Assembly: GCA_016188575.1 (NCBI GenBank) | Contig: JACPHN010000047.1 | Span: 1 to 54,629 of the forward strand | Source of the DNA: Candidatus Schekmanbacteria bacterium | GTDB taxonomy: Bacteria > CSSED10-310 > JACPHN01 | Length of the DNA stretch: 54,629 nt | Direction of reading: 5' to 3' | In this document: in pieces, positions 2,781 through 54,629 of the stretch | Position numbering within the stretch: the stretch's first letter is position 1 | Layout of the letters: each line of letters begins with the position of its first letter | Position numbers and translations under genes: made by a program | The notes under the pieces: model-generated | What the model saw: the letters and a program-made list of their open reading frames with translations, nothing else | What the model was told of the DNA's origin: nothing | Databases searched by the model: none

Positions 2781-2785
2781 ATACC

Positions 2786-3472: not shown

Positions 3473-3473
3473 T

Positions 3474-5027: not shown

Positions 5028-5041
5028 CTCTTCGTCCCTCT

Positions 5042-8000: not shown

Positions 8001-8659
8001 GTCTGCTCGCCCCAGATTTCCGGAAACGCCGTGGGCAGATCGCAATACCAATCATAAAAGCTCAGGTTGACTCCGCCAAAGAGCTGGAGAAATCGCGCAC
8101 CTGCGGCGTAGCTCAGCATGGACATGGCGGGGATCGGCGAGAAACCGAACACGCGATCGGGCCCATACTGCTTGGCAGTATGGATGTTTGCTGCCGCCAT
8201 GAGCTCGAGGGCGACAGCCCACGTGGTGCGCCGGAACCCGCCCTTGCCGCGGGCTTGTTGGTACGCGGCACGCTTCGCCGGGTCGCTTTGCAGATTCTGC
8301 CAGGCGACAACAGCGTCTCCTTTCGCGGCGGCCTTCTCCTTCTCGAAGGCGTCGAGAAGGGTTCCGCGGATCAGCGGGTATTTGATGCGCAGTGGGCTAT
8401 ACAAGTACCATGAATAGGATATCCCTCTTTGGCAACCCCGCGGCTCATACGGCGGCAGAGATTGTTCGAGCAACGGGTAATCCAGTTGCTGCGTTTCCCA
8501 GACAACAATGCCGTCCTTTACATGAATCTGCCAGGAGCAGCCGCCGGTACAATTTACGCCGTGAGTGCTCCTCACGATACGGTCGTGTTGAAAGCGGTTG
8601 CGGTAAAATTCTTCCCACTGTCGTGTCTGGGGTGAAATGATGTCTTGGATCCAGCTCAT
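5042..8659 (-). CDS. narG: Respiratory nitrate reductase alpha subunit (Mo-bis-MGD)
   Basis: A 1205-aa catalytic subunit that reduces nitrate to nitrite. The FS0 site is visible near the N-terminus: H33, C37, C41 and C76 in [10 protein letters not shown] and PRGCQRG; His as first ligand is typical of NarG. The Asp-ligand region reads [20 protein letters not shown], close to the E. coli motif. There is no twin-arginine signal (N-terminus [13 protein letters not shown]), so the active site should face the cytoplasm. The ATG at 8659 has GGAGAG eight bases upstream and was preferred to an earlier codon. Length is normal for the family. Confidence 0.97.
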
Positions 8660-8722
8660 ACTTCTATCTCTCCAACTTCTTGCGGAAGGACTCGCTCTCG
8701 GCGTTGACGGTCCACCCAATGA

Positions 8723-9577
8723 TTACTGGGTTCGCACCTGGCGCGCGAAGATCGCATGATTGACGGGATGCACTTTGCGCCGGCGCCAGAAGAGTCCGTA
8801 TAAAGCCAGCAAGAAAACAAGGCCGGCAAGACCGCTCGTGAACAGCTTGAACCCATAATCGCGGGGTTTCTGAAACTGCTGGTGCTGATCAGCGTCCTGC
8901 AGGAAGGCGACGAGCGCAAAGATTTCGTCTTCGGTGAGCGGCCTGCTGGCGAAAGCCTGGTCCATCACCGGGAAAGGGGGCTTACCCAGGATCGCCTGAA
9001 CACCGGGCCCGCCCATTTGGCCGAACACCGTGGTGAGCTCCTTCGCGAGGATGCCGCCGCCAATCACGGCGTCGTTGTTGACGTGATGGCACGAGTTGCA
9101 GGCGGGTCCCCGGTTCGCGAAACGGAGCGTGCCCTGAAACAGCTCCAAGCCCTTGCGCACGTCCTCAGGTGTCGTGGTGCGCAGCGCGGCGGCGGCGGGC
9201 GGTTGGGCAGCGCCCCCGGCACCGCCGCGCTTGACGAATTCGAGGATCTCCCGGATCTCGCTGTCTGAGTACGGGAAGTCGGGCATGGCGACCTTGTGCT
9301 CGGCAAAAAGCGCAACGGCGACCGGGTCACCGCTCTCGACGAGGGCTTGCGAGGAGCGGATGAACTTGAGAAGCCATTCCGCGGGGCGCCGATCGTTCAC
9401 GCCGGCGAGGTCGGGACCCACGCGTTTGCCGCCGCCAATGGTGTGGCAGGCGGCGCACACCGAGCCAAAGGTCTCCGCGCCGGTAGCAGCTCCGGCGGGG
9501 GCAACCGGCGGCGACCAGACCGCGAACAGCGCGGCAAGCGCCGGAACCGTAAGACGCGCAAGAAGCAGCCTGCTCAT
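8723..9577 (-). CDS. Diheme cytochrome c at the head of the nar operon (NarC-like)
   Basis: A 284-aa protein with an N-terminal signal segment (residues 1-31), haem-binding motifs CAACH (41-45) and CNSCH (160-164), and candidate Met axial ligands at M99 and M215, so two monohaem cytochrome c folds in tandem. One C-terminal membrane anchor (about 244-262) is followed by Arg/Lys residues, placing the haems on the periplasmic side. It is the first gene of the operon, 63 bp before narG. In Thermus thermophilus a periplasmic diheme NarC is encoded at this position and is needed for enzyme assembly and electron supply; a similar role is inferred here. Alternatively it may belong to a separate cytochrome c branch. 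Confidence 0.85.
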   Translation of the reverse strand: MSRLLLARLTVPALAALFAVWSPPVAPAGAATGAETFGSVCAACHTIGGGKRVGPDLAGVNDRRPAEWLLKFIRSSQALVESGDPVAVALFAEHKVAMPDFPYSDSEIREILEFVKRGGAGGAAQPPAAAALRTTTPEDVRKGLELFQGTLRFANRGPACNSCHHVNNDAVIGGGILAKELTTVFGQMGGPGVQAILGKPPFPVMDQAFASRPLTEDEIFALVAFLQDADQHQQFQKPRDYGFKLFTSGLAGLVFLLALYGLFWRRRKVHPVNHAIFARQVRTQ

Positions 9578-12083: not shown

Positions 12084-14144
12084 TTACCGCTGAAGCGGTC
12101 GTAGCGTGCGGGCTAGCTCTACTTCCATCGCCCCTAGAACTTCAACTGTGCCCACCCAGGTATCGTAGCCCTCGCGGCGGACAGTGGCCTCGTAGGTGCC
12201 GACCTCCAGCGTAAGCGTGGCGTCGCGGATAACACCGTGGGATACGCCGCGCAGAAGAATTTCCGCGGGCGGATTGAGGCGGACGTGAAGCTTGCCGTGC
12301 AGCAAGTCGATGCTCAGAGTGAGATCATCGCCCGGCTTGAGGACGACCTCGCGTTCGACGCGTGCCCGCGCGTATTCATTCTCGACCACCACGACGTGTC
12401 GCCCAGGCGGCAGCGAAACCGGTCTTACCGGCGAGATGGCAACGAAAGCGCCATCGATGAAGATGCGTCCCCATGGGTTGGCGTTTACGGCGAGTGTGCC
12501 GGCTGCCGAACCCGTGCTTCGCGTGGGCTTTTCCTGCCGCGGAGTAGGTGTCGACGGCGGTTTGGTCGGTGCGGCCGTGGCGGTCGGGGCGCTGGGTGGA
12601 GGCGTGGGGGCGAGTGCGGGTGCGGTCGCCTGGAGCACGGTGCGGGGCGGTGTTGTCAGTGCCGTCGCGGTAGCGGCGCCGGGAGAGGGCGTCGGCAGTC
12701 CCGGTAGCGTTGGCTGGCGCGATCCGTCATTGAGAAGCACGACAGCAGCAGCGTCGACGGCGGTGGCGAGAGGCGATTGCGGCGGCGATAGCGCGGACTG
12801 CGATTCAGCCGGAATTCCGGCCTGGAATTCAGCAGACGGCGTAGCAGAAACGTCGCTCGCGGGAGGATGCCACGGAGCCGTGGCCAGGAGCGCTGCGGCC
12901 ACCGCCGCCGTTAGCGAGGCCGCGAGCAGATTCCCCTTGCCCCGCGCCAGGCGCAGGCGCTTGCGGAACGAGCCGGGGACGGGCTCATGCCTTGCCGCTC
13001 GCTCCACCTCGCCAGCAGAGAGCACCGGTATCGCCGCGGTATTCGCGCTGCCCAGCACCTCAGGGGAAGGGTCGGGCAGCGGCGGCGTGGCGTCATCGCC
13101 ACCACCTTCGGCCGGGGTCTCGGGGCTGATCTCGGCGGAGCGTTCGCGCTGGTCGAGCAAGGCCAGCTCGTGCGCGAAGCGCTTCGCGTCCGCAAAGCGA
13201 TCCTCGCGCCTCTTGGCGAGCGCCGTGTCAAAAAACGCCTGATACGACTCCTGGACGCCGCGAGGCAGGGGGATCTTCGGCACGGTGCTGTCGAGCACCT
13301 TGTAGATGAGCTCGTGGTGGGACGCGGCGCGAAACGGACGAACGCCCGAAACCATCTCGTATAACACGCAGGCCAGGGAAAAGAGATCGGCTCGACCGTC
13401 GAGCGGTTCGCTCCGGATTTGCTCCGGCGACATGTACGGGGGCGTGCCCAAAGACACATTGCTGCCGGTAAGGTTGAAGGCGTCCAGCACCGCCTTGGCA
13501 ATGCCGAAATCAGTCAGCTTGATGCGGCCATCGTCGCCGATGAGCACGTTGCCCGGCTTGACGTCGCGGTGGATGATTTCTTCCGCATGAGCGGCCTCGA
13601 GTGCCGCGGCGACCTTCATGGCGATGGCCAGCGCCCAGCGCCGGTCGAGCGGTTTTTTCTTTTGCAGCACGCTCGCCAGCGATCGGCCTTCGACGTATTC
13701 CATGACGATGTAGCTGAGCCCCTGCCACTCGCCGGCATCGAAAATCGTCACGACGTTGGGATGCGTGAGCCGCCCTGCAACTCGCGCCTCGCGGGCCAGT
13801 CGCTGAGCAAGCTGTCCCTGCAGCGGCGAGCTCACCTTGGTGTCGAGGCGGATCGTCTTGATCGCAACGGCGCGGCCAATATAGGTATCCTTGGCCTGGT
13901 AGACCGAACCCATGCCGCCGTGGCCCACGATCTTGGAGATGCGGTATTTGCCGAGAAATGTGGCGCCGACCACAGGTCCGGCGGCATCGGCCGCATCCGG
14001 CGCGCCGGCTTCGCCGGCTGGCGCCGGAGCGAAGATGCTGAGGCGTGCCCCACACTGCTCGCAGGAATCGGAGGCGAGGTCATTTGGGGTGCCGCAGTGG
14101 CGGCAGAACAACTTGGAAGTGTCCGAGGACAGCGGCGAGAGCAT
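12084..14144 (-). CDS. Membrane Ser/Thr protein kinase with zinc ribbon and PEGA domain
   Basis: A Hanks-type kinase of 686 aa. Numbered from the ATG at 14144 it has a zinc ribbon (C14, C17, C28, C31), a glycine loop GHGGMG (74-79), Lys96, an HRD catalytic loop (192-194), DFG (212-214) and a GTPPYMSPEQ activation-segment end, so it should be active. A single membrane segment at about 405-424 is followed by a Pro/Ala/Thr-rich spacer and a C-terminal PEGA-type beta domain (about 545-686). The kinase thus faces the cytoplasm and PEGA the outside. A GTG at 14186 gives a longer alternative; neither start has a clear ribosome site. Substrates are unknown. Confidence 0.93.
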   Translation of the reverse strand: MLSPLSSDTSKLFCRHCGTPNDLASDSCEQCGARLSIFAPAPAGEAGAPDAADAAGPVVGATFLGKYRISKIVGHGGMGSVYQAKDTYIGRAVAIKTIRLDTKVSSPLQGQLAQRLAREARVAGRLTHPNVVTIFDAGEWQGLSYIVMEYVEGRSLASVLQKKKPLDRRWALAIAMKVAAALEAAHAEEIIHRDVKPGNVLIGDDGRIKLTDFGIAKAVLDAFNLTGSNVSLGTPPYMSPEQIRSEPLDGRADLFSLACVLYEMVSGVRPFRAASHHELIYKVLDSTVPKIPLPRGVQESYQAFFDTALAKRREDRFADAKRFAHELALLDQRERSAEISPETPAEGGGDDATPPLPDPSPEVLGSANTAAIPVLSAGEVERAARHEPVPGSFRKRLRLARGKGNLLAASLTAAVAAALLATAPWHPPASDVSATPSAEFQAGIPAESQSALSPPQSPLATAVDAAAVVLLNDGSRQPTLPGLPTPSPGAATATALTTPPRTVLQATAPALAPTPPPSAPTATAAPTKPPSTPTPRQEKPTRSTGSAAGTLAVNANPWGRIFIDGAFVAISPVRPVSLPPGRHVVVVENEYARARVEREVVLKPGDDLTLSIDLLHGKLHVRLNPPAEILLRGVSHGVIRDATLTLEVGTYEATVRREGYDTWVGTVEVLGAMEVELARTLRPLQR

Positions 14145-14235
14145 GCTGTGCTGAAGAAAACCTGGCTGCGAAGGTGCCCATGGCACGGTATCGCGTAAGC
14201 GGTTACGCTGTCAAGCGGCGACGACGCTTGGGCGC

Positions 14236-42153: not shown

Positions 42154-42318
42154 TCGGAAGGGGAGGTCACCAAACCAGAGCTCGTTCCGGTATCAGCGCG
42201 CGATAGATCTCGCGCCTACGCTCTTCGCGAGGCGGTAGCGGCGAGATTCATCGCGCCGAAATACGGGGGTGCGGGTGCGAAAATGTTCATCACGCGTTTC
42301 GGGCCGGGGTGGCAGCGG

Positions 42319-42549
42319 CGGTTCCCGAATGTGGTAGAGGTCCCCACCTCGCGTTGCGGGCTATTCCTGAATACGGTAGAGGTCCCCACCTCGCGTTGCG
42401 GGCGTTTCCCGAATACGGTAGAGGTCCGCACCTCGCGTTGCGCGCGATTCCCGAATACGGTAGAGGTCCCCACCTCGCGTTACGGGCGGTTTCCGAATAC
42501 GGTAGAGGTCCGCACCTCGCGTTGCGCGCGTTTCCCGAACACGACGAGG
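42319..42549. repeat. 42-bp tandem repeat, five and a half units
   Basis: Units start at 42319, 42361, 42403, 42445 and 42487, with a partial sixth at 42529. Each carries CCCGAATACGGTAGAGGT, and the inverted GAGGT-CC(C/G)C-ACCTC forms a small hairpin. Units differ at a few positions and alternate CCCC and CCGC loops. The period is 14 codons, so frames stay open on both strands, but there is no start signal or known product. The rest of 42154-42727 shows no gene. Confidence 0.92.
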
Positions 42550-42727: not shown

Positions 42728-43309
42728 CTACGCCCACACCTCTCCGAGATCGACGGCGAGGTCGGGCAAGGCGGCGCTGCGAAATGGTGAGCTCCCCTCG
42801 ATGCGTCCCCGCAACGAGTAGGAAACGGCGTCAGGCTCCAGTACATACTCATCCACGGTGCGCGCGTCGGGATCGAGTATCCAGTAGTGCGGCACGCCGT
42901 GTTTCGCGTACACGTTCATTTTCACGGTGACATCCTGCCGCCTCGAGCTCGGCGACAGAATCTCGACCAGAAGCGTCGGAGCGCCCTGCAGGTTCTTTTC
43001 GGTGACGATATCCCGCCGCTCCGCGGCGATGAAGACGAGGTCGGGCTGGCAGACATTGGTGTCGCTCAAGATGACGTCGATCGGCGCGTTGAGGATCTCG
43101 CCGAGCCTCTTATGCGTGACGTGGTCGTGAAGAATCCATTGCAGATTGCGGCTCACGCGTTGGTGTCGGGTGGTTGGTGCGGGAGTCACGTAGAGATCGC
43201 CTTCCAGGATTTCGTAGCGCCGCCCGTCGTTCGGGAGCGCGCAATAGTCATCGTAGGTGAGCACCACCTCGACGAGCTCGCCGACTTTCGGTTCGCGAAG
43301 AAGCGGCAT
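42728..43309 (-). CDS. Uma2 (DUF820) family endonuclease-like protein
   Basis: 193 aa. It matches the Uma2/DUF820 restriction-endonuclease-fold family: YEILEGDLYVTPAPTTRHQ, VCQPDLVFI, and TLLVEILSPSSRRQDVTVKM with the PD-(D/E)xK-like Asp and Glu, then YAKHGVPHYWILDPDARTV. GAGGAGGT before the ATG gives a strong start. These genes are numerous in some genomes and their biological role is unsettled. It lies 123 bp downstream of the GrpE-like gene with its own ribosome site. Confidence 0.88.
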   Translation of the reverse strand: MPLLREPKVGELVEVVLTYDDYCALPNDGRRYEILEGDLYVTPAPTTRHQRVSRNLQWILHDHVTHKRLGEILNAPIDVILSDTNVCQPDLVFIAAERRDIVTEKNLQGAPTLLVEILSPSSRRQDVTVKMNVYAKHGVPHYWILDPDARTVDEYVLEPDAVSYSLRGRIEGSSPFRSAALPDLAVDLGEVWA

Positions 43310-43432: not shown

Positions 43433-43888
43433 CTATTGGTTGCGTACCGTGATCACCTCGGCCTTGCGCAGGATCCGGTTTCGCGCCTGATCGACATAGC
43501 CAGGGCGCACCACGTTGAGGATCGTCGTATTCGGCAGCTCGGCCGCGGGTCGCGTCTCGACGACGGTGCACGCTTCCAACGTGGCCTTGCCTGCGGTGAC
43601 GGACAGCTCGACGATGTGTTGCTCCTCGAGCGTCCTGAGCAGCTTGCGCCGGATGGCCTGCACGTTGCCGGCGAGCCGTTTCCCCGAGCGGCCCAGCTCG
43701 TCACCGCGGCGCTCGATGCTCGCGGCAAGACTGGAAAGGGCGTCGACGGCCTCGAAGATCCCGTTGTAGAGCGCGAGCCGGGCGGCCTGGCTCTCGTCCT
43801 CGCGCCGCCTCGATTCCTGTTCGAGCTCGACGATCCGCCGCTGGAACGTCGCCAGCCGGTCGCGGAGATACTGCTTGATGTCGTTCAC
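43433..43888 (-). CDS. GrpE-like nucleotide-exchange factor of the Hsp70 operon
   Basis: 151 aa. The N-terminal 60 residues are helical/coiled coil (FQRRIVELEQESRRREDES). The C-terminal part follows the GrpE head: QAIRRKLLRTLEEQHIVEL, then a strand-rich stretch ending NVVRPGYVDQARNRILRKAE, corresponding to the GrpE GY..rvlRpA.V ending. The GTG start overlaps the stop of the J-like gene (GTGA). It would promote ADP release from the partner Hsp70 encoded three genes upstream. It is shorter and more divergent than housekeeping GrpE. Confidence 0.78.
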   Translation of the reverse strand: MNDIKQYLRDRLATFQRRIVELEQESRRREDESQAARLALYNGIFEAVDALSSLAASIERRGDELGRSGKRLAGNVQAIRRKLLRTLEEQHIVELSVTAGKATLEACTVVETRPAAELPNTTILNVVRPGYVDQARNRILRKAEVITVRNQ

Positions 43889-44169
43889 GCGTCGCTGCGA
43901 AAGCGGCTGAGATAGGCAAGGCCGGCGCCGGCGGTCGTCGGGCTCGGGTCGGGGTGATGCGGCAGCTCCACGGCGGGTAGAGAGAAGCAGTGAAGAAGCT
44001 CCGCCAGTGCCGCGCGGCGTGGATCGAGCAAGGAGCGCTGGGCCTGCGCGATCTCAAGGCCGCCATGCCGTCGTTCCCGCAACGCCCGCGCTGTCGCCTC
44101 CAGGATCTCCTTCTTGGTGGCACCCACCGGCAAGCCGAGGATTTCAAAAGGATTTACCATTTCCGACAT
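43885..44169 (-). CDS. Short J-domain-like protein lacking HPD
   Basis: 94 aa. NPFEILGLPVGATKKEILEA matches the start of a J-domain, and RSLLDPRRAALAELLH resembles its last helix. The HPD tripeptide that stimulates Hsp70 ATPase is missing: the corresponding loop reads LRERRHGGLEIA. The ATG at 44169 has GAGGA seven bases upstream and overlaps the end of the TPR gene by 16 bp. It may be a regulatory or scaffolding J-like protein, or be specialised for the divergent Hsp70. Confidence 0.7.
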   Translation of the reverse strand: MSEMVNPFEILGLPVGATKKEILEATARALRERRHGGLEIAQAQRSLLDPRRAALAELLHCFSLPAVELPHHPDPSPTTAGAGLAYLSRFRSDA

Positions 44170-46211
44170 TGCGCCATCCTCACGCGAATCGCGGCCGCGG
44201 TGGGGTGATGGGGATCGAGGCGTTCGGCCCACCGGTGCATCTGCTCCAACGTCGGGATCTCGTGGGTACATTGCGCGCTGTGGGCATCGAGGTGCGCCAG
44301 CATCTGCCCGAGCTCCTCAAAAAAAGCGTCGCGAACGTCGCTCGAGCCCGATTCTGCCGCGATCGCGCAGGCCCGGTCGAGCTTGCCGCGATCGAGTGCC
44401 TTGACGAGGTTGCGCATGGTGCGATGCTGCTGTACTGCGTCGAGGCCCGTGCGCGCGAGCTGATTGGCGGGATCCAGCTCGAGCGCCCGCTGCAGGGCGG
44501 CGACGCTGTCCGCGATGGCCTTGGTGCCTGCCATGTAAGCGACAGCATCGCTGTAGGTGATGACCAGAGAGAGAGCGCGGGCCAGCTCGGGGCGGGGTCG
44601 CTCGCGATAAATGCGATCGAGCAGCGCTTCGTAAACCGCAAGGTGGGACTGCTCCACGGCGTCGCGGGCGAGCGCGACGATGTCGTTCTCGGCGCCGGGT
44701 GCCGCGGCCAGGTAGTCACTCGCGCGATCGTAGAAATCGGGGAGCACCGTGCGCCCGGTATCCATGCAGCACAGGCCGAAAAAGAAGGTGACCTTGTCGC
44801 GCGCGTAGCGCTGGACCTCACTCCCGGCGGCCGCGGGCAGGGACTTGTAGGCGCGCTCGTACTCGCCTTCCTCGAGCAGTAGCATGCTCGCCGCGGCCGT
44901 GGAGTAGAAGGCCGCCGTTTCGAGGAAGCGAAAGTGCGAGGCGAACGCCGCGGCGTGCTTGATCGTGAAGGCCCGCAGGGATTCCTGGTGCGGAGTGCCC
45001 AGCGCGAGGCGGGGCGACAGCAGCGGCAACGGCAGCGAGCTCCCTGCGGTGCCGGCGACGGCGGACAGCTCGGCGAGCACCTGCTTCTCGGCGAGGAATA
45101 CCGCAAGCTCCGCGGCCGCGCCCGGCGCCTGCGCGTCCGCGTGCCGGCGCAGGATAGCCTCGCCCATTTGCACGAGCTCGTTGCGTAGCCACTCCCGGCC
45201 AGCGGGATCGAGAGCGGAGCCCGCAGCGAGCTCGGGTGAGAGCACGGCGCTCAACCAGAAACGCGACAGGGGAGCAACGAAGGTGGCGTCCATCTCGGCG
45301 AGGCGGCGGAACAGCTTGGCGTAGAATGCGAGCCATACCGGATCGCGTTCGCTGGGCTCGGGGTCGAGCAGGGCGGCGATTTCGGCGAAGCGCCCGGCGA
45401 GCCACAGCTCCCGAAAGTGCCCCACGCGGCAGTGGCGGAGCAACGGCCCGAGGCGCTCCGGATCCTCTCCGTAGGCGAGCAGCTCGCGCCCTTCCGCGAG
45501 GAGCTTTCCGAGGTCGCCGGGCGTTGCGGCGCGGGCGTACAGGTCCGCGGTCCACAGCGCCCTGACGGCCATCCGCTGCGCCGCAAGCTCGGGGTCGTCA
45601 CCGGCGATCTGCCGCCACTGGACGAGGCAGTCGGCGTGGCGCCCGAGCCTGGCCAGGGCAAGACCGTACGCGTAGCGGTCCACCTCGGCGAGCTGCGAGA
45701 TGCGCTCCAGGATCGCCAGCGCCTCGCCGTCGCGGCCGGCAGCGAGCAGCGTCTGCGCGGCGACGCGGCGGGAGCTGTCGTCGGCCAGGGCCGCGGCATT
45801 CGCCGCGAACAGCTCCGCGGCGCCGGAGAGGTCCCCAGCCTGCAGCCTGATCCGCGCCAGGTGCGCGCCCTGCTGCCGAGCGAATGCGTCCTCCAGAGCC
45901 GCGCAGCGCTCGCCGACCGCGGCGTCCTCCGGCAGCAGCGCGTGCGCTTCCGCGAGCGCCGCACGGGCCTCCTCCACCTTCCCGGCACTCTGCAGGCGCC
46001 GCGCGTTCTTGACCAGCCGATCCGCCGTCTCCTTGCGGATTTCGCGATCGCAAAGCGCGATCTTCGCGGTCAGCTCCGCGCCTGCTCCCAGACGTTCCGC
46101 CTCCTTGAAGCCGCGGAGCGCCAGCAGAAAGTTCCCTCGCGCCAGCATCTGCTCGGCGCGGGCGATCACCTCGCCGGCACTTGTATGAGTTGGCTTGTTC
46201 TTCTTGCTCAT
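44154..46211 (-). CDS. Large TPR-like protein of the Hsp70 operon
   Basis: 685 aa, almost wholly helical. TPR-like units are clear at both ends (ARGNFLLALRGFKEAERLG, AGKVEEARAALAEAHALLP; AALQRALELDPANQLARTG). There is no signal peptide or membrane segment. The start overlaps the zinc-ribbon/LysM gene (ATGA). TPR proteins commonly dock Hsp70 or client proteins, so a co-chaperone or client-adaptor role is inferred. Confidence 0.8.
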   Translation of the reverse strand: MSKKNKPTHTSAGEVIARAEQMLARGNFLLALRGFKEAERLGAGAELTAKIALCDREIRKETADRLVKNARRLQSAGKVEEARAALAEAHALLPEDAAVGERCAALEDAFARQQGAHLARIRLQAGDLSGAAELFAANAAALADDSSRRVAAQTLLAAGRDGEALAILERISQLAEVDRYAYGLALARLGRHADCLVQWRQIAGDDPELAAQRMAVRALWTADLYARAATPGDLGKLLAEGRELLAYGEDPERLGPLLRHCRVGHFRELWLAGRFAEIAALLDPEPSERDPVWLAFYAKLFRRLAEMDATFVAPLSRFWLSAVLSPELAAGSALDPAGREWLRNELVQMGEAILRRHADAQAPGAAAELAVFLAEKQVLAELSAVAGTAGSSLPLPLLSPRLALGTPHQESLRAFTIKHAAAFASHFRFLETAAFYSTAAASMLLLEEGEYERAYKSLPAAAGSEVQRYARDKVTFFFGLCCMDTGRTVLPDFYDRASDYLAAAPGAENDIVALARDAVEQSHLAVYEALLDRIYRERPRPELARALSLVITYSDAVAYMAGTKAIADSVAALQRALELDPANQLARTGLDAVQQHRTMRNLVKALDRGKLDRACAIAAESGSSDVRDAFFEELGQMLAHLDAHSAQCTHEIPTLEQMHRWAERLDPHHPTAAAIRVRMAQCRKW

Positions 46212-47077
46212 GGCATCTCGATGTCGATGCGTTGATCGCGGTTTTCAGGCCACGCCGCGCGCAGCTCCGCGGTCCGGCGGGCCACGTCGTCCGCGCGGAA
46301 AAAGCGCGCCGCCACGCGCTCAGGAGTGTCGTCAGGCCGGAGCGCAAAACGGCAGGTCAGCCGCGGGCCGGTGACGCGGCAGAGCTCCGCATAGACGGCG
46401 GCGGCGCGCCGCCGATCGGTCAGAATACGCAGGCTCACGCCGGTGCCGATGTCATAGATTCCCGCTTCCGGGCTGAGCGCGAGCAGCACGGGATAATATC
46501 GGCCATGGCCATAGAAGCGCTCGGCGATTTCCCAGAGCGTATCGTCCTCCCGGGCGTCGTAGGCCAGGGTAGCGGGCGGGGCGGAATCGCCCGCGGCGGC
46601 GGCGGTGACAGTGGTAGCAGGGGTGGCGGCGGCGTCCGGCGCCGGGGCAGGGACCGCCGGCGCGACAGGCACGAGCTCAGGCAGGGTCGCGGTTGGCGGC
46701 GCGACCGGCGAGGCAGTGGGGGCTGACACGAGCTCCGGCGGTGGTGGCACCGAAAGTCTGCGCACGTCGCTACCCAGACGCTCGACGCTGTCCTCGAGCC
46801 GGACCAGCGCCATGCCAAGCTCGGAAAGCTGTGCCGACGTCACCGCGCGGACCTGCCACAATCCGACCGCGAGCGCGAGCGCCAGGACCGCGCTCAGCGC
46901 CGCCAGCATCAGCGTCTGACGCCCGCCCGCCGGCGGCAACAAGGTGCCGGTCGCGCTTTCCGGCAAGGCCTCCAACAGGCGAAAGCACGTCCACTCCGCG
47001 TTGCACTGCGGGCAGTGGTCCCGGCCGGCGTCGTCGCACTCGCGCCCACAGACCGGGCATGCGGTGAGCAGCGCCAC
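46208..47077 (-). CDS. Zinc-ribbon, single-membrane-span, LysM-like protein
   Basis: 289 aa from a GTG start 3 bp past the Hsp70 stop. An N-terminal zinc ribbon (C7, C10, C22, C25) is followed by a membrane helix (about 54-74), a short helical stretch, a Pro/Ala/Thr-rich linker (about 108-165), and a LysM-like domain (DDTLWEIAERFYGHGRYYPVLLAL) ending in a strand-rich region. The ribbon would be cytoplasmic and the LysM domain would touch peptidoglycan. The ribbon resembles the one inside the neighbouring Hsp70, suggesting a membrane tether for the chaperone. Confidence 0.75.
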   Translation of the reverse strand: MALLTACPVCGRECDDAGRDHCPQCNAEWTCFRLLEALPESATGTLLPPAGGRQTLMLAALSAVLALALAVGLWQVRAVTSAQLSELGMALVRLEDSVERLGSDVRRLSVPPPPELVSAPTASPVAPPTATLPELVPVAPAVPAPAPDAAATPATTVTAAAAGDSAPPATLAYDAREDDTLWEIAERFYGHGRYYPVLLALSPEAGIYDIGTGVSLRILTDRRRAAAVYAELCRVTGPRLTCRFALRPDDTPERVAARFFRADDVARRTAELRAAWPENRDQRIDIEMP

Positions 47078-47080
47078 GAT

Positions 47081-49435
47081 CTACCGTTCCCTGATGTCCT
47101 TGTGGATCGTCCGGGTGGCGGTGTAATCGGTGTCCAGTGCGTCATCGGCCTCGTGGAGCGCCTTCTTGAGCAGCTCGGTGAGCTCGTTCTCGTTCACGCC
47201 TGGACGCAACAGCATGTCCATGATTTCCGCAAGGGAGCGGTCAAGGCGATCGGAGCGGGCGGGATCGCTATCCGCATAGACCTCCACCGCCCTCTGAATC
47301 TGCAGAATGTAGTTGGCGACGCCAAAGTGGTCGTCTATGGCGTCGTGTAGGGCGTGGATAGCGGCCGCCGTGATGTCGTAGTCGCCTTCGTCCTCCGCCG
47401 TGCGCAGCTCCGCGATGCGCTGCCGCACGACGCGGTGCCCTTCCGGCGCGATGAGATCGCCGAACTCGTCAAGGCCGTGCTCCGCGTAGAAAATGGAGGG
47501 GCCGCACGTTTGGTCCGCCGCGGCGAGCCGGCTGGCAGTTTCGAGGTAGCGCGCGGTCTTCTGAAAAAGCTGCTCGTCGAGCTGCCCGGTATTCGGATCG
47601 AGAAGCTCATGGATGGCGTTGACGGCGGAGACCACGTGGCGCTCGATGTCGGTCATGACGTACTGCGAGTATCGCTCCTTGTTGGCCCGGTCGATGAGCG
47701 CTTCGAGCTCGAGCAGGAGCTTCTCGTCGCCGCTGCCGCGCGACAGCGTCTTGGTGATCGCGATTTCGGGATGCTCGCGCAGGGCGGCGGAAACTTCCAG
47801 GATGTTGTCGCTGTCGACGCGCAGCGCGATCTCCACGTGCCGCGGCTGCTCGGCGGCCGCCAGGTCCTCATCGGCGGTGTCGTCCGCGGCGTCCTCGTCC
47901 GCGCCGGCGGAAAACGCCAACCACAGGTCGCCCACCGGCTCTTCCACGTCATTGACCACGTTTACGAACTTCAGATGGGCGAGCTGTTGCTCGGCGTGGA
48001 CGGTTTCGAAGACGGCGCTGGTCTCGCAGGGAAGGGGCGACCCTTTTTCGATGAGCAGCTTGCGCTCGCCGTTTTGCAGGTAGATGTAGTAGTCGTGCGC
48101 GGCCGAGTGAACGATGTCGAAGACGCCCTTTTCGATGACGTGGCGCTCGAGGTCGAAATCGCAGCGCTGGCAGCGGGTTTCGGACTGCTTGACGGCGGTG
48201 CCGCAGCCGGGGCATTCGTAGGTATCGGCAAGCCGATGGCTGAGGATGGCGGCGCCTTCGGCGACGGCGAGCATGGGCCGCGGATGCACCATGACCTTTT
48301 CCGCGCCGAATTCGCCCTGCACGGCAGCGACGATGCTGGGCACGAGCGACGAACCGCCGACCATGAGCACCTGGTCGATGAGATCCGGCGTCAGGCACAA
48401 GCTTTGCAGGAGATCCCGAGTGAGCTTGACGGTGCGCTCGGCGATCGGCGCCACGAGCCGGTCGAGCTCGGCTCTGGAGAATTCGACCTCGACGTCGAGC
48501 TCCTCGCCGTCGCGGTCCGTCAAGGCGCCGAGGATGTCGACGACGACCCGGTCGCGGCTGCTGAGCGCGATCTTGGCCTCCTCGGCCTTCTCCGCCAACT
48601 GCCCGAGAAAGCGGTAGCGGCGCGCCACCGGCTGCTCGGCGATGAGCGCGCGGAGGTCGTCGAGCTCGTGCGCCGCCGCGGTTTCGCGCAGCACGTGCTC
48701 GGCAACGAGGCGGTCGATGTCGGCGCCGCCCAACCACATGTCGCCTCCCTTGCCCTGCTCGAGGACTTGCCCGCCGCTGATCATCAGCACCGACAGGTCG
48801 AACGTACCGCCACCCAGGTCGAATACCATCACCGTCCGGGAGTCCTCGGGCGCGAGCTCATCGACGCCGAAGCAGATCGCCGCCGCCGTCGGCTCGGGCA
48901 GGAGCCGCTGCACTTTCAGCCCCGCCAGGGCCGCGGCCAGGCGCGTGGCGTGCTTCTGCTTGTCGTTGAAGTAGGCCGGGACCGTGATCACGCACAGCTC
49001 GATCCTGTCGCCGAGCTGCGCCTCGGCGTCCGCGCGGATTTTGTCCAGAATCTTCGCGGAGATCTCCTCGGGCGTGAGCTGGTCACCGTGCAGGTTGATC
49101 GCCAGCGAATGGACGCTGCCGCGCTCGTGGCGCTCGATCCGGTAGGGCACGCGCGCCTCGGCGATGATCTGCTGCACCTCGGGGCTGTCGAAGGGCCTGC
49201 CGATGAGGCGTTTGACCGCGACAACCGTGTTCTCCGGGTCCTGTTTGCGCCACGCGAGCGCGTCGCGACCGACGACGAGCCGCGGTTTCGCGGGCGGCTC
49301 GCCGGCTTTTTGGCTGCACACGCAGGACGGCGTCAGCAGCTCGCCCTCGGCGTTTTTGAGGATTTCGGTACCCAGGATCTTGATGGCGGCTACCGAGTTT
49401 GTCGTTCCGAGGTCGATGCCGATCGACTTGGCCAT
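47081..49435 (-). CDS. Hsp70-family chaperone with internal zinc ribbon
   Basis: 784 aa. The ATPase domain (1-405) carries phosphate-1 GIDLGTTNSV (6-15), phosphate-2 VFDLGGGTFDLSV (204-216) and the adenosine motif VLMVGGSSLVPSI (356-368), so it should bind ATP. Where DnaK has a short hydrophobic linker, there is a four-Cys zinc ribbon (C408, C411, C422, C425). A divergent beta substrate-binding domain (about 430-560) and a long helical C-terminus (about 560-784) follow; a DnaK-like lid tail is absent. It heads a five-gene operon with co-chaperone-like genes and is a second, specialised Hsp70, not housekeeping DnaK. Confidence 0.92.
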   Translation of the reverse strand: MAKSIGIDLGTTNSVAAIKILGTEILKNAEGELLTPSCVCSQKAGEPPAKPRLVVGRDALAWRKQDPENTVVAVKRLIGRPFDSPEVQQIIAEARVPYRIERHERGSVHSLAINLHGDQLTPEEISAKILDKIRADAEAQLGDRIELCVITVPAYFNDKQKHATRLAAALAGLKVQRLLPEPTAAAICFGVDELAPEDSRTVMVFDLGGGTFDLSVLMISGGQVLEQGKGGDMWLGGADIDRLVAEHVLRETAAAHELDDLRALIAEQPVARRYRFLGQLAEKAEEAKIALSSRDRVVVDILGALTDRDGEELDVEVEFSRAELDRLVAPIAERTVKLTRDLLQSLCLTPDLIDQVLMVGGSSLVPSIVAAVQGEFGAEKVMVHPRPMLAVAEGAAILSHRLADTYECPGCGTAVKQSETRCQRCDFDLERHVIEKGVFDIVHSAAHDYYIYLQNGERKLLIEKGSPLPCETSAVFETVHAEQQLAHLKFVNVVNDVEEPVGDLWLAFSAGADEDAADDTADEDLAAAEQPRHVEIALRVDSDNILEVSAALREHPEIAITKTLSRGSGDEKLLLELEALIDRANKERYSQYVMTDIERHVVSAVNAIHELLDPNTGQLDEQLFQKTARYLETASRLAAADQTCGPSIFYAEHGLDEFGDLIAPEGHRVVRQRIAELRTAEDEGDYDITAAAIHALHDAIDDHFGVANYILQIQRAVEVYADSDPARSDRLDRSLAEIMDMLLRPGVNENELTELLKKALHEADDALDTDYTATRTIHKDIRER

Positions 49436-49680: not shown

Positions 49681-51777
49681 ATGAGCGGTGAAGACGAAGG
49701 GGGCGAATGGCTGGAGCAAGTGCGGCGCGCCCGGGACGCGTGGGAAGCGGGCGACGCGGCGGCGGCGCGGGAGCTGGTGGCGCGCGAGGACATGCTGGAG
49801 CGGCGGGATCCGGCGCTGCACATGGCGCTCGGCGCGCTGGCCGAGGAGATCGGCGAGCTTGGGCGCGCGGTGCGCGAATACAACCTGGTGGTTCGGGACG
49901 ATCCGGACAGTGTGGAGGCGTGGCGGCGGCTCGGGCAGTTGCGCGCCGACCACGGGCAGCTCGATCGCGCCGTGCGCTGCTACGAGCGTCTGCTGGCGCT
50001 GGCGCCGGAGGATGCCGAGGCCACCATGCACCTGGCGCGGTGGCAGCGGGATCGCGGCCATCCGGACGAGGCGCAGGACGTGCTCGCCGCGGCACACGGG
50101 CGCACCGCCGACCAGCGCCTCGGCGAGGCGCTGAGCCGCGCCCGCCGCGAGGCGCGAAACCCGGCCGCCGAGACCGACCCTCCGGCCGCCGGCGCACCCG
50201 CTGGGGCGATGCCCACCGAAGGAGACGCCATCAACTTCTGCACGCTGTTCGGCGGGCGCGAGGGCGTCTACGCCCGCCAGTGGGCGGCGCCGGGCGGGGC
50301 GACGGGGTACACGCCGGTGAGCGAGCCGTTCACGCCGGCGGTGGCGATGCAACACCTCTCGGGAAACATCACCGTCGGGATCTACCCGGTGCGCCTCGAC
50401 CGCACGGTGAACTTTCTCGCCTTCGACCTGGACGCGGCGAAATACGCGCGCACCGGCGCCGGGGAGAGCGGTCGCGCGCGGGCTCGGCTCGACGCGCTGA
50501 CGCACGCGGCGGCGGTGGCCATCGCCGAGCGCGCGGCGGCCTTCGATCTGCCCAGTGTCCTCGAGGATTCCGGCCAGAAGGGCCGCCACGTCTGGATGCT
50601 GTTCGCTTCCCCGATCCCGGCGCTTGCGGCGCGCCGCCTCGGACGCCTCATCCTCGACGGCCTCACCGGCCTGCCGGCGGAAATCACCGTCGAGCTGTTC
50701 CCCAAGCAGTCGACGGTCCCACACGGCGGGCTCGGCAATCTCATCAAGCTGCCACTGTCGATCCATCGCCGCAGCGGCCGGCCGTCGCGGTTCTTGCGCC
50801 AGGACGGCACCGTGGTCCCGGACCCGTGCGCGCTGCTCGCCGCCGCTCCCACCGTGCGCCGCGACGACGTCTTGCGCATCCTCGAGCGATACGCGCCGGG
50901 TTCGGGCGACCCGCGAGCGCAGCCGGGGCACAGCGGCGGCGGCAAGATTCACCCCCTTCCGGGCGTATCCCTTTCCGGCGCAGCCGATGGCGAGCACGAC
51001 GTCACGGCCGAGGACGTCGCGACCTTGCCTGCCGGCCTCGCCGAACGCGCCCCCTACGACCTCGACCAGGACCAGGAGGCGCTCTGGCTCCGCCAGCGCT
51101 GCCCGGTGCTCAACGAGATCATTCGCCGCGCCGAAACCGCCTCCTCGCTGACTGCCGACGAGCGCGTCGTGCTCACCTATACCCTCGGCCACGCCACGCG
51201 CGGCGCCGAAATGGTCAACGCCGTGCTCGCCCGCACGCTCTCCGTCCAGGAAAGCGACTTCCTCAAATCCCGGCTACGCGGCAACCCGATGAGCTGCCCG
51301 AAGATCCGCTCGCGCGTGAGCGCCATCAGCGGCGCCGTCGACTGCAACTGCCGCTTCGACCTCTCCAACGCGACCTACCCGACGCCGCTGTTGCACCTCT
51401 CCGAGCTGCGCGCCGAGCGCCAGGCGGGCGGCGATGCCGTGCGCCTGACGCGGTTCCAGCTCGAAAACCTCGTCGGCGAGCTCATCAAGATCAAGAGCGA
51501 GCAACGTCGCATGCAGCGGTTGCAGCAGAGCCTCGAGGAGCGCCTGCGCGCGTTCATGGAAGAACAGGCGATCACCGAGCTCGTCACGCGGCACGGCCTG
51601 CTGCGGCGAGACGAGACCGGCACCTTCACGGTAACCTTGCCCGGAGGACAGGAGCGACAAACGGATGGCGGTGCTGTACGTGACGGAGCAGGGCGCGCGG
51701 GTCAACCGGAAGTCCGAGCGGCTGCTGATCTCGAAGGCGGGCGTGCTGCTGCGCCAGGAACCGCTGGCCAAGGTTGA
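49681..51777 (+). CDS. TPR-fused primase-polymerase, CRISPR-associated (CAPP-like)
   Basis: 698 aa. Residues about 15-140 are TPR-like. Residues about 180-400 form an archaeo-eukaryotic-type primase domain: catalytic Asp pair D249/D251 (FLAFDLDAAK), the SGQKGRH motif (297-303) and a third acidic/basic segment (VELFPKQ, GNLIKLPLSIHRRSG). A C-terminal four-Cys set (C484, C539, C555, C557) fits a primase C-terminal metal or Fe-S site. GGAG precedes the ATG. It overlaps cas1 by 113 bp; the last 37 or so residues are encoded out of frame with cas1. CRISPR-associated primase-polymerases near cas1/cas2 are known and are proposed to fill or extend spacer DNA during adaptation. Confidence 0.85.
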   Translation: MSGEDEGGEWLEQVRRARDAWEAGDAAAARELVAREDMLERRDPALHMALGALAEEIGELGRAVREYNLVVRDDPDSVEAWRRLGQLRADHGQLDRAVRCYERLLALAPEDAEATMHLARWQRDRGHPDEAQDVLAAAHGRTADQRLGEALSRARREARNPAAETDPPAAGAPAGAMPTEGDAINFCTLFGGREGVYARQWAAPGGATGYTPVSEPFTPAVAMQHLSGNITVGIYPVRLDRTVNFLAFDLDAAKYARTGAGESGRARARLDALTHAAAVAIAERAAAFDLPSVLEDSGQKGRHVWMLFASPIPALAARRLGRLILDGLTGLPAEITVELFPKQSTVPHGGLGNLIKLPLSIHRRSGRPSRFLRQDGTVVPDPCALLAAAPTVRRDDVLRILERYAPGSGDPRAQPGHSGGGKIHPLPGVSLSGAADGEHDVTAEDVATLPAGLAERAPYDLDQDQEALWLRQRCPVLNEIIRRAETASSLTADERVVLTYTLGHATRGAEMVNAVLARTLSVQESDFLKSRLRGNPMSCPKIRSRVSAISGAVDCNCRFDLSNATYPTPLLHLSELRAERQAGGDAVRLTRFQLENLVGELIKIKSEQRRMQRLQQSLEERLRAFMEEQAITELVTRHGLLRRDETGTFTVTLPGGQERQTDGGAVRDGAGRAGQPEVRAAADLEGGRAAAPGTAGQG

Positions 51778-52831
51778 GCAGCTCGTGCTGCTCGGCAGCG
51801 TGCAAATCACCAACGCCGCGCTCCGCGTCTGTTTGCGGCGCGGCATCGACGTGGCGCTGCTGACCATGGGGGGGAAGTTCCTGGGTTCGCTGACCTCGGG
51901 CGCGAGCCCGCACGTGACGCTGCGGCGGGACCAGTTCCGGCTGCTCGACGACGAGGCCCGCGCGCTCGCCCTGGCGCGCCGTTTCGTGGCCGGCAAGATC
52001 GCCAACCAGCGCGCGCTGCTCGGGCGCTACCAGCGCTCGCGGCAGAGCGAATCGCTGGCGCGGGCGCTGGTTTTCCTGCGGCTCACGGGCGAACGGCTCG
52101 CCGGCTGCCGCACCGTGGACGAGGTGCGCGGCTTTGAAGGACGCGCGTCGGCCGCCTACTTCGAGGTCTTCGGCGAGCTCATCGACGCCCCGGACATGGC
52201 GTTTCACACGCGGCAGCGGCGGCCGCCGCCCGACCCGGTCAACGTGCTGCTGTCCTTCGGATACACGATGTTGACCAACGCGATGCACGGGGTTGTCGCG
52301 CTGGCGGGTCTCGACCCGCACTTCGGAGCGCTGCACGCGCTCGAGCGCGGCCGCGCCTCCCTGGTGCTCGACCTCATCGAGGAGCTCCGCCCCGTCATCG
52401 TCGACACGACCGTGCTGCGCGCGATCAACACGCGCATGATTACTCGCCGCGACTTCGAGGACGCCCTGGAGTCGGACGAGGACGAGGAAGAAGACGAGCT
52501 TCCCGAGCTGCTCGCCGAGGTCGTGCGCGAGCCGGACGCCGAGGCGGACGGCGTGGCGGATGGCGGCGGTGGTAGTGGCGGCGAGCCCGCCGGCACCGGC
52601 GGCGACGCGCGGGGCACCGGGCCGCGACCGCAGCGGCGGCAAGTGATCTTCACGCCCGCCGGCGTCCGCAAGTGGGTGTCAGCGGTGGAGCAACGCATGC
52701 TCGTGCGCGCGGTCTATTCGCCGCGCGACGAGTCGCTGACGTATCGACAGATCATGCGGGAACAGGTCTACCGGCTCGCCCGCCACGTGCGCGGCGAGGA
52801 CGAATACGAACCGTACGAGTGGCGCTGGTGA
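51665..52831 (+). CDS. cas1: CRISPR-associated integrase Cas1
   Basis: 388 aa. The metal-binding triad is E158 (GFEGRASAAYF), H224 (FGALHALERGRASL) and E239 (LDLIEELRP), with the LLSFGYTMLTNAMHG helix. It forms the integrase complex with Cas2 and inserts spacers next to the leader. An acidic then Gly-rich segment (about 270-326, with DEDEEEDELPELL and GGGGSGGEP) interrupts the C-terminal helical domain and makes it longer than typical Cas1 (about 300-340). The ATG has GGAG about ten bases upstream inside the primase gene. Confidence 0.96.
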   Translation: MAVLYVTEQGARVNRKSERLLISKAGVLLRQEPLAKVEQLVLLGSVQITNAALRVCLRRGIDVALLTMGGKFLGSLTSGASPHVTLRRDQFRLLDDEARALALARRFVAGKIANQRALLGRYQRSRQSESLARALVFLRLTGERLAGCRTVDEVRGFEGRASAAYFEVFGELIDAPDMAFHTRQRRPPPDPVNVLLSFGYTMLTNAMHGVVALAGLDPHFGALHALERGRASLVLDLIEELRPVIVDTTVLRAINTRMITRRDFEDALESDEDEEEDELPELLAEVVREPDAEADGVADGGGGSGGEPAGTGGDARGTGPRPQRRQVIFTPAGVRKWVSAVEQRMLVRAVYSPRDESLTYRQIMREQVYRLARHVRGEDEYEPYEWRW

Positions 52832-52870
52832 ACCCAAATCGCCCCCCGATCGACGCGAGGCCGGCAAGCT

Positions 52871-52978
52871 CATCCATTCGTCACCCGGTCCGAAACCCCG
52901 CCCTTCAGGGCGGATTCGCCGCGGAACCCCGGCCTGAAGGCCGGGGTTTCAGCGGTGGTTTGGGCGGGGTCCAAACCC
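52871..52978. repeat. 108-bp palindrome-rich repeat, copy 2, in the cas1-cas2 gap
   Basis: Same orientation and nearly the same sequence as 10443-10550. Hairpins CCCCGGCCTGAAGGCCGGGG and CCGCCCTTCAGGGCGG are preserved, and a third, GCCGGCCTGAAGGCCGGC, follows at about 52992-53009. The 303-bp gap holds no other recognisable feature. Confidence 0.85.
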
Positions 52979-53134
52979 CGCCCAAACATGTCGCCGGCCT
53001 GAAGGCCGGCATCCATATTGGTCGATACAGGCGCGATCCCGGCTTTCCCCGGGAGGCATCGAGAGCGGGTGCGACCTCGCCTGGCCCCAGGTTTGCGGGC
53101 GATTTGCGGTGAAGTCGCCGCGAGGAGAGTAGTC

Positions 53135-53410
53135 GTGTATATCGTGGTGAGCTATGACGTGGTTTCGGACAGGCGGCGCGCGGAAGTCGCGAAAGTGCTG
53201 GAAGATACCGGCCGGCGAGTGCAGAAGAGCGTGTTCGAGTGCCGGATCGACGAGCGCGCGCTGCTGAGGCTGCGCAAGCGACTGGCGGAGGCGATCGATC
53301 AGAGCGAGGACAGCGTGCGCTTCTACCGCCTCTGCCAGCGGTGCGTGACGTCGCTCGAGGTGCTCGGCCAGGGAACGCTGACTGCGGATGAGGACGTGAT
53401 CGTGGTGTAG
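53135..53410 (+). CDS. cas2: CRISPR-associated Cas2
   Basis: 91 aa, ferredoxin-like: YIVVSYDVVSDRRRAEVAKV with the conserved Asp at the end of strand 1, and VQKSVFECRIDE on strand 2. GAGGAGAG seven bases upstream marks the GTG at 53135 as the start; the longer open frame before it is not coding. It bridges Cas1 dimers during spacer integration. It is separated from cas1 by the palindromic repeat instead of overlapping it. Confidence 0.95.
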   Translation: MYIVVSYDVVSDRRRAEVAKVLEDTGRRVQKSVFECRIDERALLRLRKRLAEAIDQSEDSVRFYRLCQRCVTSLEVLGQGTLTADEDVIVV

Positions 53411-53564
53411 CGGGCGAACGGCGGCGGCTCACGGGCTCCCGAAGAGCGTGATCAGGCCACAATCTCCGGCGTCGGCCGAAGGTGCTGTACACCATGGCGA
53501 GCGCAATGCGCGCGGCGTTCGGCCAACAGCCGGAATCCTGGCGCGATTGCCAGCTCATGAGACC

Positions 53565-53689
53565 TTGCCGTACGCACCGGCGTGACAATGCCGCCCTCCG
53601 ACCCGCCCCCCGCTTGCGGGGGCGGGAGGTGGGGGTATTCGCGATGCGCTTTCAGCGCAGCTTGCGGTCGAAGTGGCGGTGGATTCAGG
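53565..53689. repeat. Dispersed repeat family (about 140 bp type), copy f
   Basis: GGCGTGACAATGCC is followed by a CCCGCCCCCCGCTTGCGGGG palindrome with flanking CGGGAGGTGGGGGTATTC, then GCGATGCGCTTTC and the GGCGGTGGATTCAGG end, aligning with 17170-17309. It lies between cas2 and the CRISPR leader. The rest of 53411-53955 shows no gene. Confidence 0.8.
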
Positions 53690-53955
53690 TCGTCGTCTGA
53701 GCTTGCGAGGAATCGCGCGCGGACGACGCTCCGCGTCGCGCGCTCGGCCGCGGCGCGCGGAAGGCGGGGTGTGCGTGCGATCAGGGACTTGGAGCGGCTA
53801 CCTCGCACCGGTCCGTTCGTTCCCGGGCGGATGGCGAGACGGTGCGTTTGCTGCCTCTCCGCGCGCGGCGGGGCGGAGCGCGGCTGTGACCGACAACGCA
53901 CACCGTGGAGCTCATTGTCCGCAATCGGGAGCAACCGGCGTTTTGCGGCATGGCC

Positions 53956-53984
53956 TTGCGGCAATCGGGGCAATCGCGTATATT
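53956..53984 (+). promoter_or_regulatory. Candidate CRISPR leader promoter
   Basis: TTGCGG (53956-53961), a 17-bp spacer and TATATT (53979-53984). A transcript from about 53991 would run about 150 nt through the A-rich leader into the first repeat at 54144. The direction agrees with the repeat ending in ATTGAGAC. Confidence 0.45.
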
Positions 53985-54143
53985 GAAGACGAAAAAAGCA
54001 CCGTTGACGCGGAAAAACGCGAAGCTGGAGCAGTTCCTTGGTAACTGAATATGTCGGTTCCGGGGATGGTGGGGGATCCCCCCCTATGGGTGCGTTGAAA
54101 AAGGCCCGGCATTCGGCCTGGGGAGATGATTTTCGGGAGCACA

Positions 54144-54629
54144 GTCTGCAGACCGGCCCCGTTTTCTAGGGGATTGAGACTTCCAGATCTTCTTGCGAAT
54201 TTCTTCGACTAACCCTTCAGTCTGCAGACCGGCCCCGTTTTCTAGGGGATTGAGACATGTCCCTGCAGCGCTTCCTTGCTGCAGAGGAGCAGTCTGCAGA
54301 CCGGCCCCGTTTTCTAGGGGATTGAGACGGAGGCCGCTGCCAGGTCCCCTTTGATGGTAGCCTTCGTCTGCAGACCGGCCCCGTTTTCTAGGGGATTGAG
54401 ACTTTCATACCCGGATATTTCGCATGCGAAATATCTCAAGGTCTGCAGACCGGCCCCGTTTTCTAGGGGATTGAGACCGCTTCCGCGGCGTCAATCTCGA
54501 TCTGTGCGTACCTGGTCTGCAGACCGGCCCCGTTTTCTAGGGGATTGAGACTTTCCGACGCTGCAGAAATTTCCGCGGCGTCAGCTTTTGGTCTGCAGAC
54601 CGGCCCCGTTTTCTAGGGGATTGAGACCT
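54144..54629 (+). CRISPR. CRISPR array, seven repeats visible, cut by the window end
   Basis: 37-bp identical repeats beginning GTCTGCAGACCGGCCCC and ending GGGGATTGAGAC lie at 54144, 54220, 54292, 54366, 54441, 54515 and 54591. Six complete spacers have lengths 39, 35, 37, 38, 37 and 39 bp. The repeat starts with the palindrome GTCTGCAGAC and has a CCCC/GGGG stem around GTTTTCTA. The leader-side cas1/cas2/primase genes and the repeat ending fit a type III-like or mixed system, but no effector gene is in the window, so the type is not fixed. Confidence 0.98.

Follow-up and report, generated by a model that had tools for sequence, protein, structure and literature searches.

On a contig of Candidatus Schekmanbacteria bacterium (GCA_016188575.1, JACPHN010000047.1, 54,629 nucleotides, this whole stretch being called the window), five consecutive genes at 43433-49435 of the minus strand encode an Hsp70 carrying a zinc ribbon, a membrane protein with a zinc ribbon, a transmembrane (TM) segment and LysM-like domains, a TPR-like protein, a J-like protein and a GrpE-type protein. 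On balance, and with modest confidence, we favor the view that these genes form a dedicated Hsp70 machine, cytosolic at the inner membrane and apart from the housekeeping DnaK/DnaJ/GrpE. Judged from the protein sequences, the predicted parts are an Hsp70 that has kept its ATPase residues and its substrate-binding beta domain (SBD-beta), a GrpE of its own, a J-like protein devoid of the HPD motif, and the product of the adjacent ribbon/TM/LysM gene. In every Hsp70 system that is well studied, to our knowledge, the HPD motif of a J-protein docks on the Hsp70 linker and thereby triggers ATP hydrolysis. In the operon described here, the two sides of this contact have changed together, in some twenty genomes from three or more phyla, and the machine brings an exchange factor of its own along with a probable anchor to the wall.

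Conservation of the five genes

The five open reading frames (ORFs) of the window were confirmed, neighboring ones overlapping or nearly touching. The start of the J-like gene is best set at 44160, where ATGGTAA overlaps the stop of the TPR gene, and relatives have the same MNP(F/Y) start. Relatives were first reached with a DNA pattern that combined the last part of the Hsp70 ATPase domain with a CPxCG behind it; locus counts are lower bounds, and further loci may exist beyond the pattern matches listed. Among these matches is the cable bacterium Candidatus Electronema aureum (NQJD01000029; Thermodesulfobacteriota, Desulfobulbales), which holds all five genes in the same order and whose Hsp70 is 47% identical to that of the window along its whole length. 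Searches seeded from Electronema matched 16 of 258 genomes of its order, Electronema counted, as well as one genome (G606) of another order in the same phylum. The order Hsp70, ribbon/TM/LysM protein, TPR protein, J-like protein and GrpE, on one strand, is complete in the window and in at least 14 further loci (L196, L209, L227, L229, L231-L240). Three copies are partial: two stop at a contig end (L230 and L241, the latter also with a broken Hsp70 reading frame) and one retains the first two genes only (L228).

Pairwise distances are correlated among the five proteins (r 0.86-0.96), as expected for a co-inherited unit, a correlation to which shared species history also adds. Synteny and co-divergence together indicate that the five genes are functionally linked, and they do so without specifying a mechanism. 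The sequence-only reading, which saw one system in these genes and would have given way had the set not been conserved in relatives, is thus upheld on this point by complete, syntenic copies in 15 genomes.

The distribution is sporadic, since only two genomes in an even sample of 395 from the phylum of Electronema carry the operon. In a broad sample of 386 genomes the source genome alone matched, the remaining weak matches being unrelated or ordinary Hsp70 proteins, and, of the eight genomes covered from the source phylum, the other seven gave no match to the TPR protein or to the Hsp70 C-terminus. Used as a protein query, this C-terminus found no match in the genome collection, in 195 genomes of another phylum or in plasmids, and a scan of viral contigs was likewise negative. 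As to heat-shock control, the regions ahead of the operon in 17 genomes share no convincing CIRCE, sigma-32 or sigma-54 site. The source genome (9.2 Mb in 275 contigs) encodes separate canonical chaperones, namely DnaK and GrpE on contig C68 and two DnaJ on contig C115, and several ordinary J-proteins are present.

The Hsp70, the J-like protein and the HPD-linker contact

The window Hsp70 matches PF00012 (E=3e-92) over residues 5-402 only and is 47-54% identical to its 17 relatives. Equivalents of the nucleotide-binding and catalytic residues D8, K70, E171, D194, T199 and D201 are kept in all 18 proteins, the GrpE-signature loop is kept in length, and the region beyond the linker can be aligned to the SBD-beta of DnaK, so that a substrate-binding beta domain is present. 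The best PDB matches of the Hsp70 model are DnaK structures, a full DnaK being matched over 750 columns. A structure model built from a three-sequence alignment (mean pLDDT 72) contains the ATPase domain, strands of the SBD-beta and, at the C-terminus, a long helical part, with low confidence for the ribbon and the substrate-binding domain. In a tree of the ATPase domain only, whose root placement is left aside, the 18 Hsp70s and two from Christensenellales group together, apart from 28 other Hsp70s (100/98).

A ribbon CX2CX10CX2C, with four cysteines in fixed spacing, occurs in 18/18 of the operon Hsp70s, whereas canonical DnaKs have none. It had been described as standing in place of the interdomain linker, which is only roughly so: on alignment with canonical DnaKs it falls, in all 18 proteins, between the ATPase domain and a linker that persists in diverged form, reading xGxx[DEG]IVH against VLLLDV in DnaK, and the hydrophobic sequence VLLLDVTP is not found. 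In the DnaK-DnaJ complex the HPD motif contacts the linker (L391), R167, Q378 and P419 (PMC8215388). The equivalent of Q378 is a leucine in 18/18 operon Hsp70s and a valine or alanine in the two Bacillota members, while those of P419 and of R167 (which the Bacillota pair has as lysine) are kept.

The J-like protein has diverged on the other side of this contact. Taken as a longer ORF it had no Pfam match at E<=1, and from the corrected start a weak one (E 0.16). PF00226 matches 12/16 of the J-like proteins weakly (best 8e-4) and, where the matched stretches are displayed, they cover only the first ~20 of 63 positions, before the HPD. By profile-profile comparison with hhalign the family resembles genuine J-domains (90%, E=1.6e-6, against 0.3% for GrpE as a control), with a gap of ~12 residues over the HPD. 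The motif itself is absent from 16/16 relatives and from both Bacillota proteins; therefore this is not a canonical J-protein, although at the profile level it resembles the J-domain, as first proposed. No operon contains an HPD-bearing J-protein either. The description of the system as self-contained is accordingly doubtful, and the operon Hsp70 may need outside help or another trigger. With the HPD loop gone, the linker diverged and Q378 replaced, we infer that the canonical HPD-linker trigger was lost jointly in the Hsp70 and in the J-like protein.

Two other operons, each encoding a short Hsp70 and a GrpE, were seen in passing. In one (L015, 7396-10976) a J-TPR protein reads DPE for HPD and the Hsp70 linker reads HMTP for DVTP; in the other (L017, 7361-9677) HPD-less J-like N-termini lie nearby. 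From these, HPD loss and alteration of the linker may go together more widely.

The GrpE assignment holds, since the window protein exceeds the curated cut-off of PF01025 (39.4 bits, cut-off 25.8), as does a relative (46.5 bits), and the profile of the operon GrpE family matches a solved GrpE (4ani, E=5e-10). For the TPR protein, whose identity across the operon family is 19-30%, the window match is sub-threshold and the relatives pass (TPR_2 29.4 bits; TPR models up to 1.5e-7 in several of them), which bears out the original assignment of the third gene.

The membrane protein and the proposed tether

The membrane protein begins with a conserved N-terminus, CPxC...CPQCDADLTCF, and has a ribbon CX2CX11CX2C in 18/18 genomes. 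Hydropathy gives one TM segment in each of the 18 proteins, and lysine plus arginine are more numerous before than after it in 12, equal in 3 and fewer in 3. LysM is detected in 16/18 of them (E<=0.1) and lies above the PF01476 cut-off in relatives, the protein of L209 reaching 29.5 bits (cut-off 20.9) with two LysM copies, so that the LysM assignment made for the window stands. Given the domain order of cytosolic ribbon, TM segment and LysM, together with the charge bias before the TM segment in 12/18, the protein is probably a wall tether, a prediction well motivated by this order. In Candidatus Electronema (L196, 9098-9424) and a relative (L228, 6425-6799), the LysM gene is immediately followed by an HdeA-family gene of opposite orientation; in E. 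coli, proteins of the HdeA type act as chaperones of the periplasm.

Two Christensenellales genomes of the Bacillota (L198 = UBA1431, and L248) have these parts in a rearranged set. There the run is a kinase-TPR gene, GrpE, Hsp70, an HPD-less J-like protein, a helical TM protein and a ribbon-TPR-TM-BON-LysM protein, and the Hsp70 has two linker ribbons and one C-terminal ribbon. This recurrence of the parts in a different order and in a different phylum, with the Hsp70 and the LysM anchor each having a ribbon, is the strongest indirect evidence for an association of ribbon, Hsp70 and anchor.

In the dedicated machine that we favor, the membrane protein would keep its ribbon inside and its LysM domains outside, bound to peptidoglycan. 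The chaperone would be held at the membrane through the ribbon of the membrane protein, which might contact the Hsp70 ribbon directly or act through the J-like or TPR protein. Ordinary J-proteins would not trigger the ATPase, since the HPD loop and its docking site (linker, Q378) are both gone. The ribbon and the J-like protein might substitute for the trigger, or binding to the tether might gate the cycle, and the TPR protein is likely a client or scaffold adaptor. A bolder proposal, which we offer tentatively and would not bet on, is that the operon represents a new class of wall-anchored bacterial Hsp70 machine, in which the linker ribbon and the HPD-less J-like protein replace the HPD-linker trigger and contact with a peptidoglycan-bound membrane protein, not with a J-protein, gates the ATPase. 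In function it would then correspond, within bacteria, to the import motor of mitochondria.

Several points weigh against a tethered machine switched in this way. In the window itself the LysM and J-like matches fall below the Pfam cut-offs, and the AlphaFold model of the J-like protein (four helices, pLDDT 52) is too low in confidence to count as support. The PDB matches of the LysM profile include the potassium-binding LysM protein Kbp, so LysM is not always wall-binding. The ribbons of the Hsp70 and the membrane protein had been called matching; a four-cysteine ribbon is indeed found in both proteins in every genome, but the spacing differs (X10 vs X11) and the two need not pair. Moreover, with R167 and P419 kept, J docking may not be fully lost.

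Known systems and rival explanations

No named system of this composition was found in the open-access literature searched, in agreement with the sequence-only reading. The canonical DnaK/DnaJ/GrpE system shares the ATPase residues, the SBD-beta and GrpE, and differs in that the operon has the ribbon insertion, the altered linker and Q378, the HPD-less J-like protein, the anchor and TPR proteins, and a nucleotide-binding domain of a separate clade. The mitochondrial import motor PAM comprises mtHsp70, the HPD-less Pam16, Pam18, the zinc-ribbon protein Tim15/Hep1, the GrpE-type Mge1 and the membrane tether Tim44 (PMC9695410). The likeness thus covers a membrane-associated Hsp70, its own GrpE, an HPD-less J-like protein, a zinc ribbon and a membrane tether; in contrast, the operon is bacterial, has its ribbon within the Hsp70 and in the tether, includes LysM and TPR parts and lacks a Pam18-like HPD protein. 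Since Pfam scans of the five proteins and their relatives gave no match to the Pam16, Pam18, Tim15 (zf-DNL) or Tim44 families, this is likeness and not membership. E. coli HscC is a specialized Hsp70 thought to act at the inner membrane with the membrane-anchored J-proteins DjlB/DjlC (PMC8215388). Like HscA, it has lost the GrpE signature (PMC8215388), and it uses HPD J-proteins, whereas the operon has a dedicated GrpE, an HPD-less J-like protein and a ribbon/LysM anchor.

Such single-client Hsp70s bear on an alternative that we consider unlikely, in which the set is dedicated without being tethered: the ribbon/LysM protein would be its client or sole target, and the association would reflect the folding or insertion of that protein. 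Each operon has one LysM protein, its gene always adjoins the Hsp70 gene, and dedicated single-client Hsp70s exist (HscA, PMC8215388). However, a client would need no conserved cytosolic ribbon (18/18) paralleled by one in the Hsp70, and the operon Hsp70 keeps the GrpE signature that HscA and HscC have lost and brings its own GrpE.

We give slightly less credence to an envelope-stress sensor, in which LysM would sense the condition of the wall and the ribbon would signal to an Hsp70 controlling a regulator or kinase rather than folding clients in bulk. The Bacillota version has a Ser/Thr kinase-TPR gene (L248 and L198) and, at the contig edge, the apparent end of a phosphatase gene, and three cable-type genomes (L196, L228, L229) have a response regulator/histidine kinase immediately ahead of the operon. 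Yet regulators are not conserved neighbors in the other operons, and the five-gene core contains none.

The nearest bacterial description that we found is the HSP70/GrpE/DnaJ-or-TPR theme of the GAP1-N2 GTPase systems (Kaur et al. 2020), whose operons combine Hsp70, GrpE, a DnaJ- or TPR-protein, ribbons, TM segments and sometimes peptidoglycan-binding domains (PMC7159879). These ingredients are similar to those found here, and the window operon adjoins a PrimPol-Cas1-CRISPR locus and a Uma2-type nuclease, which could suggest a biological conflict (defense) system akin to this theme. However, our operon has a ribbon in its Hsp70 and a fixed five-gene core, and Pfam found no DO-GTPase, GAP1, FNIII or effector domain in its proteins or their relatives. 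PADLOC gave no match for the Hsp70, membrane, TPR and GrpE proteins and only a weak Cas11 match for the J-like protein (E 0.0015). The flanking genes vary among relatives and are ordinary ones, such as D-Ala-D-Ala ligase (Ddl), an RNase PH-like gene and a fumarate reductase-like iron-sulphur protein (FrdB-like). Without an effector and with ordinary neighbors in relatives, we hold this reading to be very improbable; on present evidence the operon is not a defense system. Least probable, and only slightly credible, is that the J-like protein is a Pam16-type regulator pairing with housekeeping DnaJ in a system reliant on the general chaperone network and not insulated: Pam16, without HPD, acts by pairing with Pam18 (PMC9695410), the R167 and P419 equivalents are kept and the genome has several ordinary J-proteins, but no operon has an HPD protein, and the HPD-contacted linker and Q378 are not conserved.

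Coordinates of the operon features (window positions unless a locus is named)
Feature	Position	Strand	Basis
Hsp70, 784 amino acids: ATPase domain (1-402), zinc ribbon, diverged linker, SBD-beta, long helical C-terminus	47081..49435	-	Pfam HSP70
Zinc ribbon of Hsp70, residues 408-425, CX2CX10CX2C	48161..48214	-	four Cys in 18/18
Zinc-ribbon/TM/LysM membrane protein, 289 amino acids	46208..47077	-	conserved N-terminus, one TM, LysM in 16/18
N-terminal zinc ribbon of membrane protein, residues 7-25, CX2CX11CX2C	47003..47059	-	18/18
TM segment of membrane protein, residues 55-73	46859..46915	-	hydropathy
First LysM-like domain	46427..46567	-	sub-threshold in window; PF01476 match in homologue L209
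Second LysM-like domain	46214..46360	-	aligns with second LysM of L209
TPR-like helical-repeat protein, 685 amino acids	44154..46211	-	TPR models in relatives; always gene 3
J-like protein, 91 amino acids, HPD loop deleted	43885..44160	-	hhalign to J-domains
GrpE-type nucleotide exchange factor, 151 amino acids	43433..43888	-	PF01025
Ribbon-TPR-TM-BON-LysM protein, variant of anchor	L248 7510-8634		Christensenellales

Elsewhere in the window, a TPR-primase/polymerase gene (AEP-TOTE, PrimPol) overlaps a Cas1 gene beside the operon (49681-54629), and the same region holds a CRISPR array of at least 7 repeats of 37 nucleotides, with spacers of ~37 nucleotides, that reaches the contig end. The Uma2-type nuclease gene adjoining the operon lies at 42728-43309 and is followed downstream by 5.4 tandem copies of a 42-bp unit with the palindrome GAGGT...ACCTC (42317-42543). 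Among the relatives fetched, the CRISPR and Uma2 neighbors are not conserved with the operon. Another ribbon protein on this contig is a Ser/Thr kinase (12084-14186) that has PEGA domains and, at its N-terminus, a zinc ribbon. At 2049-9577 a cytochrome c gene accompanies alpha, beta and gamma genes of a nitrate reductase-like (Nar-type) kind.

To conclude, the genes and their conservation are borne out more strongly than the sequence-only reading had stated, while its claim of a self-contained system has become weaker. If the ATPase of this Hsp70 works, the operon would be a natural test of Hsp70 switching without HPD. It would likewise test the role of a chaperone held in one place at the cell envelope, also in cable bacteria, which have conductive fibres in theirs.

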